NCBI GenBank assembly: GCA_027052175.1
Contig: JALUFE010000081.1
Span: 1-34,302, forward strand
Direction: 5' to 3'
Source of the DNA: Helicobacteraceae bacterium
GTDB taxonomy: Bacteria; Campylobacterota; Campylobacteria; Campylobacterales; Sulfurimonadaceae
Length of the DNA stretch: 34,302 nt
The stretch's first letter is position 1. Each line of letters begins with the position of its first letter. Made by a program: the position numbers and the translations under genes. This document shows positions 1,752-6,072 of this stretch, in pieces. The notes beneath the pieces are model-generated. The model saw nothing but the letters and a program-made list of their open reading frames with translations. It did not search any database and had not been told where the DNA came from.

Positions 1752-2099
1752 ATGCTGCTTGGAAAATGCCCTTACTGTGAAGATGGGATGATAGAGGTGC
1801 GAGAGAAGAACGTCAGAGGCAAAAAAGTCAAACTCTATGCCTGCTCCAATGCTCACTGGAAAAGTGAAGATGGGGAGCTTTGGGAGCTTAGAGAGGATGC
1901 TTCGTGCGATTTTCGCATCTGGCAAAATACTCTTGGGCGGTATGGAAAGTGGCTTGGCTACAAGGAGGTGCGCGAACTCTTGGAAGAGGGGGAGATACGC
2001 GTGGAGTTGGTCAGCAAAAGATACGGTAAGAAGATCAACTATGAAAAAAGTGTCATACTCGATAGAGAGTATGGCGTGAGTGTAGTCTGGGATGACTAA
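1752..2099 (+). CDS. small zinc-ribbon-like hypothetical protein
   Basis: N-terminal CPYC and later C...NAHW; 115 aa, starts soon after the divergent gene's end of spacing. Confidence 0.65.
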   Translation: MLLGKCPYCEDGMIEVREKNVRGKKVKLYACSNAHWKSEDGELWELREDASCDFRIWQNTLGRYGKWLGYKEVRELLEEGEIRVELVSKRYGKKINYEKSVILDREYGVSVVWDD

Positions 2100-2995
2100 C
2101 GGCTGATTGAGAGCCCTATAGAGACTTTGTTGACATTGTGGTTGTAGTCGATCAGGCTCTCACCGTAACCGTTGAAGGTTTTGAAGTAGAGAAAGATGTC
2201 GCGGTTGTTGATAACGGGCAGCGGGTAGGAGTAGCTGAACTCTACCGCACTTTTGCGCCGTGAGATGTTCGAGCGCAGTTTAAGGCGGAAGAGGTGCTGT
2301 TTGTATGGCAGGATGAACTGCAGCTGTCCATACCCTATATAGTCGATTAGATCGGGGTTGTAGTCGTTTTTGTCGTGAAATCTGTACCACACTTCAAGCT
2401 CGGTGACAAGATGGCGGTACTGCAAATATGTAGAGAGGCTGGCACGGTTCCAACTTCGTTCATACTCGCCGCCTCTGCCGTTTGACTGATGGATAAAAGC
2501 GAGTTTGAAGCCTTTGAGGAAGCTCTTCTCTCCAAGAAAACGGTATGCCGGAATGGAGATGAAAAGCTCGGGCTGATAGTTCGACTCGCGAAAAAAGGCG
2601 GAAGAAACGTAGACCTGCCAAAAAGAGCGCTGTGTGAAGCCAAAGGAGTATATCTCTCCAAAACCAAGCCAGTCGCTTGCGAAGTCGTAGCGGATACTAA
2701 GCTGAAACTCCGTTTCGACATCTTCGGCTTTGTGTGTACCATTGTCGATGTACTCCGAGTCGTAGCGATACCCAATAGGCAGAAAATAGTTCTCTTTGTA
2801 GGCTTTAAGGTTGAATCCCGAGTGAACGATCTGTGAGAGAGTCGCTTTTGATTCGTCATCTATATCTTCGAGCTCTCTGACGATATTCTCTTTTTGTCTG
2901 TGAATCTCTTCAAAAGTATCCGCAAGTGTCAAATCGCTAAGAAGCAAAAGCAAAAGTGGGAGAAATTTTTTCATCATTTTGAGAGTATAGCACAA
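2096..2995 (-). CDS. pldA: outer membrane phospholipase A-like protein
   Basis: Signal peptide; OMPLA-type motif FIHQSNGRGGEYERSWNRASLSTYL and beta-barrel-like strands. Confidence 0.8.
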   Translation of the reverse strand: MCYTLKMMKKFLPLLLLLLSDLTLADTFEEIHRQKENIVRELEDIDDESKATLSQIVHSGFNLKAYKENYFLPIGYRYDSEYIDNGTHKAEDVETEFQLSIRYDFASDWLGFGEIYSFGFTQRSFWQVYVSSAFFRESNYQPELFISIPAYRFLGEKSFLKGFKLAFIHQSNGRGGEYERSWNRASLSTYLQYRHLVTELEVWYRFHDKNDYNPDLIDYIGYGQLQFILPYKQHLFRLKLRSNISRRKSAVEFSYSYPLPVINNRDIFLYFKTFNGYGESLIDYNHNVNKVSIGLSISR

Positions 2996-3023: not shown

Positions 3024-3029
3024 TATAAT
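3024..3029 (+). promoter_or_regulatory. candidate -10 box of the alpha operon promoter
   Basis: TATAAT about 136 nt upstream of the rpmJ ATG. Confidence 0.5.
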
Positions 3030-3035
3030 TCGCAT

Positions 3036-3164
3036 CCACTTTAGTGCTTTAGCTCAAAGTCAGAGTGTTTTTAGATGTACATTCGTTGTGCTTCTAAAAA
3101 TGTTGGCAAGGCGTTTAAGCCGGCCTGGAAGTACTAAAGATGAGGAAATACCAAGGGAGCTTAG
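3036..3164 (+). promoter_or_regulatory. candidate structured 5' leader RNA of the rpmJ-rpsM-rpsK-rpsD-rpoA-rplQ operon
   Basis: P1: CTTTAGTGCTT (3039-3049) pairs with AAGTACTAAAG (3129-3139), one G-U. P2: TTTTTAGA-T-GTACA-ttcgt-TGTGC-T-TCTAAAAA (3068-3100). P3: GGC-aa-GGC-gtttaa-GCC-g-GCC (3105-3125). Also GCTC-aaagtca-GAGT (3052-3066). Confidence 0.6.
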
Positions 3165-3278
3165 ATGAAAGTTCGCGCTTCAGTAAAGAAGATGTGTGAT
3201 GATTGTAAAGTCATCAAGAGAAAAGGTATTGTCAGAGTAATCTGCAAGAACAAAAAACATAAACAGAGACAAGGATAA
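3165..3278 (+). CDS. rpmJ: 50S ribosomal protein L36 (Zn-binding form)
   Basis: Read directly from sequence: [37 protein letters not shown]. Not in the supplied ORF track because it is short. Confidence 0.97.
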
Positions 3279-3280
3279 TC

Positions 3281-3643
3281 ATGGCACGTATTGCTGGTGT
3301 TGATTTACCTAAGAAAAAGAGAATCGAGTATGGCCTAACATATATCTACGGTATAGGTCTTCATACTTCTAGAAAGATACTTGACGCTACAGGTATCTCT
3401 TACGACAAAAGAGTCTATGAACTTACAGAAGAGGATGTAGCCGCGATCACGAAAGAGATCCGTGAAAACTACACGGTCGAGGGTGATCTTCGTAAACAAG
3501 TGGCAATGGACATCAAAGCGCTTATGGACCTCGGTAACTACAGAGGTCTCAGACACAGACGCGGTCTTCCTGTAAGAGGACAAAAAACCAAGACGAACGC
3601 TCGTACTCGCAAGGGTAAGAGAAAAACCGTCGGTGCAGCGTAA
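3281..3643 (+). CDS. rpsM: 30S ribosomal protein S13
   Basis: [26 protein letters not shown]...[22 protein letters not shown]. Confidence 0.98.
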
Positions 3644-3662: not shown

Positions 3663-4055
3663 ATGGCAAAAAGAAAAGCTGTTAGAAAAAAGATAGTCAA
3701 GAAAAATATCGCTCGCGGTATCGTTCATATCGCTGCGTCATTTAACAACACTCTCGTTACTATTACTGACGAGATGGGAAATATGATCGCATGGAGTTCT
3801 GCCGGAAGCCTTGGTTTCAAGGGGAGCAAAAAATCCACTCCGTTCGCGGCACAGGCAGCTGTAGAAGCAGCTATGGAAAAAGCGAAAATCCACGGTATCA
3901 AAGAAGTCGGTATCAAAGTGCAAGGTCCAGGTTCAGGTAGAGAGACTGCAGTGAAAACTGTCGGTGCTATCGAAGGCATCAGAGTACTTTATCTAAAAGA
4001 TGTTACACCGTTGCCACACAACGGATGTAGAGCGCCTAAGCGTCGTAGAGTATAA
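3663..4055 (+). CDS. rpsK: 30S ribosomal protein S11
   Basis: [22 protein letters not shown]...[15 protein letters not shown]. Confidence 0.98.
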
Positions 4056-4067
4056 GGAGGTTGAGAC

Positions 4068-4694
4068 ATGGCAAGATATAGAGGTCCAGTAGAGAAAATC
4101 GAAAGAAGATTTGGAGTCAGCCTCAACCTCAAAGGTGAGAGAAGACTCGCAGGTAAGAGTGCGCTTGACAAAAGACCATACGGTCCCGGTCAGCACGGTC
4201 AAAGAAGAAAGAAGGTTTCCGAGTACGGTTTGCAGCTTGCTGAGAAGCAAAAAGCGAAATTTATGTACGGTGTTGCTGAGAAGCAGTTTAGAAACCTCTT
4301 TAAAGAAGCGAAAAGAAGACAGGGAAATGCAGGTAACAACCTCATTACACTTCTTGAGCAGAGATTGGACAATGTCGTTTACAGAATGGGATTTGCAAGC
4401 ACGAGAAGATTTGCAAGACAGCTTGTAACGCACGGTCACGTTCTTGTAGACGGCAAGAGAGTGGACATTCCGTCTTACAGAGTCAAACCTGGTCAAAAAA
4501 TCGAAATCAAAGAGAAATCAAAAAACAACCCTCAAATCCAAAGAGCGATCGAACTTACCAACCAGACAGGTATCGCTCCATGGGTTGATGTAGATCAAGA
4601 GAAGGTTTTTGGTATCTTTACAAGACTCCCTGAAAGAGAAGAGGTCGTTATCCCTGTTGAAGAGAGACTTATCGTTGAGCTTTACTCTAAATAA
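4068..4694 (+). CDS. rpsD: 30S ribosomal protein S4
   Basis: [25 protein letters not shown]...[27 protein letters not shown]. Confidence 0.98.
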
Positions 4695-4718: not shown

Positions 4719-5711
4719 ATGAAAAAGATCAAGACTACTCCACTTGCTCCACAAGAGTTTGAGGTAGAACAAATAAGCGAGAATGAAGCGAATGTTATCG
4801 CCTATCCTTTTGAAACAGGGTATGCGGTTTCTCTCGCTCATCCGCTTCGCCGTTTCTTATTAAGCAGTTCGGTCGGGTACGCTCCGTACGCGATCAAGAT
4901 AGAGGGGGCCAAGCATGAGTTCGACTCCGTTCGTGGGATGCTTGAGGATATCTCCGACTTTATTCTCAACCTCAAAGATGTTCGTTTCAAACTTTTGGAT
5001 GGTACGACGGATGTAGAGGTTGAGTACAACTTCGCAGGTCCATGCGAGATCAAAGGAAGCGATCTCAGCGGCGATGCGGTTGAGGTTGTTACCCCGGATG
5101 CGCATTTGGCAACTTTGAACGAAGAAGCGACGTTGAATTTTTCGCTCAAGATCGCTCAGGGTATTGGTTATGTACCGAGTGAAGATATCATCGATGAAGT
5201 ATCGGATGATTATATCGCTCTGGATGCATATTTCACTCCGGTCAAGAGTGCCACCTACAAGATAGAAAACGTACTTGTCGAGGATAATCCAAATTTCGAG
5301 AAAGTAGTGTTTAGCATCAAGACGGATGGACAGATTTCTCCGATCGATGCATTTAAAAACTCGTTGGAAGTGATGTACGCACAGCTTGGTGTGTTCAATT
5401 CCGAAATCAGCATCAAATCTCCATCGACGATCGAGAGAGTCGAAGAGTCTGCAGAACTCAAAAAACTCACTCAGCCGATCGACACACTGGGATTGAGCGC
5501 GAGAAGTTACAACTGCCTTGACAGATCGAACATCAAGTATGTTGGAGAAATCGTCATGATGAGTCCGAACGATCTAAAAAATGTCAAGAATCTCGGGAAA
5601 AAATCCTATGATGAGATCGTTGAAAAACTTAACGAGTATGGGTTCGAGGTAGGAAGCAAGCTTCCTGAAGAGGTCGAAAGCGCACTCAAAAAGAAAATAG
5701 AAGCTAAATAA
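4719..5711 (+). CDS. rpoA: DNA-directed RNA polymerase alpha subunit
   Basis: [40 protein letters not shown]...[21 protein letters not shown]. Confidence 0.98.
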
Positions 5712-5721
5712 GGATAGGAAG

Positions 5722-6072
5722 ATGAGACATCGTCACGGATATAGAAAACTAGGTCGTACAAGTGCTCACAGAAAAGCACTTCTTATGAACCTAAGCATCG
5801 CTCTTTTGGAGCATGGCAAAATCGAAACAACGGTTGAAAAGGCAAAAGAGCTTCGCGGTTTCATCGAAAAGCTCATCACAAAAGCCAAAAAAGGTGACAG
5901 CAATGCTCACAGAGCTGTTTTTGCTGTTCTAAGAGACAAAGAAGCTACAAAAAAACTTGTCAACGAAGTAGCTCCTCAGTACGTTGAGAGAAACGGTGGT
6001 TACACTAGAATCATCAAGACAAGAACAAGACGCGGCGACGCTGCGGATATGGCTTTCATCGAATTGGTATAA
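5722..6072 (+). CDS. rplQ: 50S ribosomal protein L17
   Basis: [24 protein letters not shown]...[24 protein letters not shown]. Confidence 0.98.

Follow-up and report, generated by a model that had tools for sequence, protein, structure and literature searches.

A three-way-junction RNA leader shared by most Campylobacterota precedes the alpha ribosomal operon and is probably an autogenous ribosomal-protein leader

Is the alpha ribosomal operon in the window (the whole 34,302-nucleotide stretch of DNA that was analysed) preceded by a regulatory RNA and, if so, of what kind? The first-pass annotation had described a branched, partly tRNA-like RNA leader in front of the operon, had considered an autoregulatory role plausible and knew of no described equivalent in Campylobacterota. 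We, too, know of no alpha-operon leader in this phylum. The operon and its predicted promoter comprise the following features:

3024–3029, plus strand: predicted -10 box TATAAT of the alpha-operon promoter (consensus only)
3036–3039, plus strand: predicted transcription start zone, directly 5′ of helix P1 (from the -10 spacing)
3155–3159, plus strand: Shine-Dalgarno (SD) sequence GGGAG of rpmJ (read from the sequence)
3165–3278, plus strand: rpmJ (bL36), the first gene 3′ of the leader (PF00444, E 8.9e-20)
3281–3643, plus strand: rpsM (uS13; PF00416)
3663–4055, plus strand: rpsK (uS11; PF00411)
4068–4694, plus strand: rpsD (uS4; PF00163 and PF01479), whose product is the putative leader ligand
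4719–5711, plus strand: rpoA (Pfam)
5722–6072, plus strand: rplQ (bL17; PF01196)

In nearly all correctly parsed Sulfurimonadaceae loci, TATAAT, TACAAT or a near variant is located 9 nt before P1, the closing helix of the leader; the predicted transcript of the window's family therefore starts at P1. The divergent upstream gene (2096–2995, minus strand) codes for a phospholipase A1 family outer-membrane protein (PF02253, E 9.4e-70). Unlike in Campylobacter, infA is not upstream of the alpha operon in the window.

The minimum free energy (MFE) of the region 3030–3164 is −43.9 kcal/mol, as compared to −30.9 ± 3.5 for shuffled sequences (z −3.7); none of the 200 shuffles folded as well. The fold consists of the following elements:

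3039–3050, plus strand: 5′ strand of P1 (MFE; covariation in the Sulfurimonadaceae alignment A1; compensatory changes relative to the same-genus genome G010)
3051–3063, plus strand: junction J1/3, A-rich in relatives, with a conserved terminal AG that precedes P3 phylum-wide
3052–3055 with 3063–3066, plus strand: GCTC/GAGT mini-stem, its GCTC strand in J1/3, found in the window's genus
3064–3104, plus strand: hairpin P3 in its phylum-wide register (MFE, covariation, match to the R3 model described below, G010 comparison)
3105–3125, plus strand: hairpin P4, GGC-aa-GGC-loop-GCC-g-GCC, which abuts P3 and has an invariant GG/CC base (MFE, covariation, G010 comparison)
3128–3139, plus strand: 3′ strand of P1, which ends 25 nt before the rpmJ start codon (MFE, covariation, G010 comparison)

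P3 is built of an outer stem (3064–3075/3093–3104), a U-U mismatch (3076/3092), an inner stem (3077–3081/3087–3091) and a loop (3082–3086). The helices listed in the first-pass annotation are all present: the 11-bp closing helix (3039–3049/3129–3139) is contained in the 12-bp P1, the mini-stem and the GGC-type hairpin are part of the MFE fold, and the long hairpin with a U-U mismatch, originally given as 13 bp at 3068–3100, occupies 3067–3101 in the MFE fold (14 bp plus the mismatch). The phylum-wide register extends P3 to 3064/3104 and so competes with the mini-stem. An identical fold is found in G010 (locus L140), with compensatory changes. All 12 pairs of P1 are kept there, two of them changed on both sides; P3 carries a swap of an A-U to a U-A pair, and P4 is rewritten with pairing preserved.

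The tRNA-like layout fared less well. The D-arm-like TTTAGCTC..GAG motif, i.e., the GCTC/GAGT mini-stem, is possible in just 2 of 53 parsed loci, both from the window's genus, and ARAGORN reported 0 tRNA genes; the tRNA-like reading was dropped for these two reasons. A switch in which GCTC would pair alternatively with the GAGC overlapping the SD was likewise rejected, this pairing being seen in the window's genus only. Pairing of a 5′ UCC with GGA of the SD, which is part of the MFE fold, was also discarded as unsupported: the potential for it is common, yet hardly any variation is seen on either side, and the pairing coincides in part with the predicted start zone. No intrinsic terminator or attenuator was found at the window's leader.

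Covariation in relatives, which the first-pass annotation had put forward as one check, was observed for P1, P3 and P4. Within Sulfurimonadaceae, two-sided changes were counted at 10 of the 28 aligned pairs of these helices, a number that none of 500 shuffles reached, and the covariation score is 0.194 as compared to 0.125 for shuffles and at most 0.10 for slid controls. In the phylum-wide core, such changes affect 14 of 16 pairs, the score is 0.608 (shuffles, 0.196; slid controls, about 0.13 or less), and 95.7% of cells are paired (slid controls, about 50% or below). Among 122 P3 cores, which were picked partly by pairing so that their pairing percentage is biased, covariation is seen at most positions, while one U-G pair and two U-A pairs are nearly constant.

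To what extent is the leader shared? Eighty loci were located through S13 and read upstream of rpmJ. Nearly all of them have a common core made up of P1, a junction strand whose last nucleotides are AG, a long P3, P4 and the 3′ strand of P1 (P1′); the 3′ strand of P3 runs directly into GG, and P4 opens with GG..CC. Three covariance models, whose E-values all come from short calibrations, were searched against 397 Campylobacterota genomes. R1, which represents Sulfurimonadaceae including the window, matched 42 genomes, all from the window's family and one of them from the same genus. R2, which represents the Sulfurovum type, matched 97 genomes, nearly all from families other than the window's; when the window was searched with R2 with filters off, the leader was not found. 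R3 describes the phylum core, leaving out the window's genus as well as the Campylobacter and Arcobacter rows misaligned by MAFFT. Its best match in the window is at 3058–3127 (23.2 bits, E 0.0033, filters off), a score that is probably too low, as are the other R3 scores, because the P4 register of the model was two columns off (the pair count was corrected separately). R3 also detects the leaders of G010, Campylobacter and Arcobacter, all absent from its own alignment. At E up to 0.1 it matched 199 of the 397 genomes, a number that includes false matches among those with E above about 5e-4: rpmJ was missing from the vicinity of most weak matches inspected, including all three in family f2. 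Homology of the window type and the pseudoknot types described below is argued for by R3, by synteny and by the core that they have in common, since R2 alone fails to connect them.

With few exceptions, each model gave a single match per genome, and rpmJ is 3′ of the leader in every locus for which the strand of the match was read by the tblastn parse. An apparent second copy in the window's own genome (contig C121, 7312–7342) was discarded, as it is the end of a sister strain's orthologous contig. C121 (locus L082 in assembly G000) is a diverged second orthologous contig that covers the region left of the leader and ends at the leader, which is consistent with two strains in one MAG. Genomes without a model match were read directly: the leader was seen in Campylobacteraceae and Sulfuricurvum-like genomes and, in a compact form, in Nautiliaceae-like genomes; it is absent from eight genomes of family f2 and from the one genome of family f6. 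We infer that f2 is Helicobacteraceae, and the family names of the other genomes carrying G handles are assigned in the same way. This conserved three-way-junction RNA, a single-copy family, extends over most of the phylum.

Most lineages, among them the Sulfurovum, Campylobacter and Sulfurospirillum types, have in addition a covarying pseudoknot, in which CAC in the P3 loop faces GUG in the strand 3′ of P1′. With CAC/GUG as the sole anchor, the first flanking pair is G-C, C-G, A-U or G-U in 56 of 57 loci (shuffle mean 33.6) and the second is U-A, C-G or U-G in 51 of 57 (shuffle mean 41.8); both counts exceed those of all 2000 shuffles. The first flanking pair has undergone about 10 changes on the S13-S11-S4 protein tree. 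For independent G-C/A-U swaps, both sides shift together in nearly every random pairing, with numbers too small for a significant sign test. Sulfurimonadaceae, including the window, have no P3-loop pseudoknot and possess the 12-bp P1 instead. The pseudoknot strand ends 20–24 nt before the rpmJ AUG in 42 of 43 uninterrupted loci, and in relatives with the window-type P1 this helix ends 20–25 nt before the AUG, except at loci with an insert. In 12 of 55 pseudoknot loci, inserts of 47–300 nt, most of them strongly structured, precede the AUG. Such inserts are hard to reconcile with simple occlusion of the start site, unless they hold the pseudoknot and the AUG close together.

Several relatives also carry repeats near the leader. 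In many of them (L004, L009, L019, L034, L038, L043, L062, L069 and L134), a hairpin-forming repeat with the core ..GGTG-AGCTTTAGTGA..GA.. has been inserted. The insertion site is either the P4 loop or the stretch between the leader and rpmJ, not the junction, P1 or P3; a search for the strict pattern in the window's own genome found none. In L111 and L179, AGAAGGTAG-type repeats 3′ of the pseudoknot make up one long palindrome before rpmJ. In L003, a terminator-like hairpin, ACCGCGAAGGCGGTTTTTT, with a T-run is located at about 2070–2095, right after the pseudoknot and before the long insert that precedes rpmJ.

The Sulfurovaceae-type pseudoknot strands, GCACCG and GGUGCAA, which are the commonest ones, each occur exactly once in 16S rRNA, on opposite sides of the base of a helix that we take to be helix 18 and that presumably lies within the S4 five-way junction. 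S4 binds a five-way junction in the 16S 5′ domain (PMC10931766). Two of the helix 18-like pairs are changed in Campylobacter, and the likeness is therefore only a lead. The broader idea that the leader is a phylum-wide S4 sensor whose pseudoknot mimics the base of 16S helix 18, and that the window's lineage swapped the pseudoknot for a longer P1, is accordingly tentative, and we consider it rather doubtful.

As had been suspected, then, a structured and conserved cis element of the alpha operon is present, its helices covary and an autoregulatory role for it is plausible. In our preferred reading, to which we assign a probability of about 0.62, the leader is an autogenous ribosomal-protein leader, most likely uS4-binding, that controls translation of rpmJ; S4 is put forward by analogy, because of its precedent in the alpha-operon leaders of other lineages. 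The transcript, predicted to begin at the base of P1, would fold into a three-way junction in which P4 abuts P3 without a gap. An operon ribosomal protein, uS4 being the likeliest, would bind and clamp this junction whenever its amount exceeds that of rRNA. An additional pairing, between the P3 loop and the strand that ends 20–24 nt before the rpmJ AUG, would then form in most lineages; in that of the window, it is the end of the long P1 that occupies the equivalent place. The clamped structure, situated at the upstream edge of the 30S binding site, would hinder initiation at rpmJ, and translational coupling may lower expression of the downstream genes as well. In favour of this reading stand the stable, covarying fold, the pseudoknot of relatives, the single copy and the constant position and spacing; against it weigh the long inserts at some pseudoknot loci, the missing pseudoknot in the window's lineage, the lack of a GUAA motif in the window's leader and the failure of R2 to recover that leader.

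The ligand may be another product of the operon (S13, S11, L36 or L17), since the leader precedes all of their genes and rpmJ is the nearest, whereas the Sulfurovaceae pseudoknot strands coincide with the helix 18 base that we presume to belong to the S4 junction. A 2020 survey of ribosomal leaders emphasises how uncertain ligands assigned by precedent are (PMC7247131). S4 is, however, the ligand of alpha-operon leaders elsewhere, S4 leaders being known or proposed in Gammaproteobacteria, Firmicutes, Clostridia, Bacteroidia, Flavobacteria and Fusobacteriales (PMC7247131, PMC10931766), and we regard a different ligand as unlikely. One can also imagine that the structure mainly stabilises the 5′ end of the mRNA, e.g., against a 5′ exonuclease such as RNase J, with no protein switch involved. 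The predicted transcript of the window's family does begin within a few nucleotides of P1, and inserts between leader and start codon are tolerated; yet the conserved AG/GG junction, the U-G pair in P3, the phylum-wide P4 and a pseudoknot at a fixed distance from the AUG would all be superfluous for a mere end-hairpin, making this explanation quite improbable. Least probable of all is an element acting on elongating RNA polymerase (antitermination, Rho-dependent or intrinsic attenuation), for which one may cite the variable distance to rpmJ in about a fifth of pseudoknot loci, the terminator-like hairpin of L003 and the antitermination role of S4 in E. coli (PMC10931766), but against which stand the lack of an intrinsic terminator at the window's leader and the tight 20–24 nt spacing in uninterrupted loci, which points to initiation.

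If the autogenous reading is correct, Campylobacterota, the phylum to which Campylobacter and major sulfur oxidisers belong, would have evolved another independent RNA solution to alpha-operon control. Natural variants make the mechanism testable, since the pseudoknot is present in some lineages and replaced by a long P1 in others, while the leader is compact in Nautiliaceae-like genomes and lost in Helicobacteraceae-like ones.

The leader was also compared with known families. A search of the window against Rfam 15 gave no match at gathering score, and relaxing the thresholds brought up nothing meaningful at the leader; RF00140 (Alpha_RBS) reached just 12.3 bits (cut-off 38) at 3222–3300, outside the leader. 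The 2020 survey lists no S4 leader for Campylobacterota (PMC7247131), and our literature search found no description of an alpha-operon leader from this phylum. The S4 leaders of Clostridia and Fusobacteriales, predicted before rpsM-rpsK-rpsD-rpoA-rplQ with the ligand assigned by precedent (Eckert and Weinberg 2020, PMC7247131), belong to other lineages and are set apart by their description and by the lack of an Rfam 15 match here; Firmicutes and Fusobacteria S4 leaders contain a GUAA imitating 16S rRNA, whereas direct reading of 3036–3164 reveals none. The Bacillus rpsD leader also serves S4 autoregulation through a structured leader, as is proposed here, but it is described as lacking a pseudoknot and preceding rpsD alone (PMC10931766) and gave no match to the window in the Rfam scan. 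The S4-binding E. coli Alpha_RBS regulates the same operon core and, like most Campylobacterota members though not that of the window, has a pseudoknot near the ribosome-binding site of the first gene. In E. coli this pseudoknot takes in the rpsM ribosome-binding site, whereas in Campylobacterota it is located upstream of the rpmJ SD and is built on a three-way junction.
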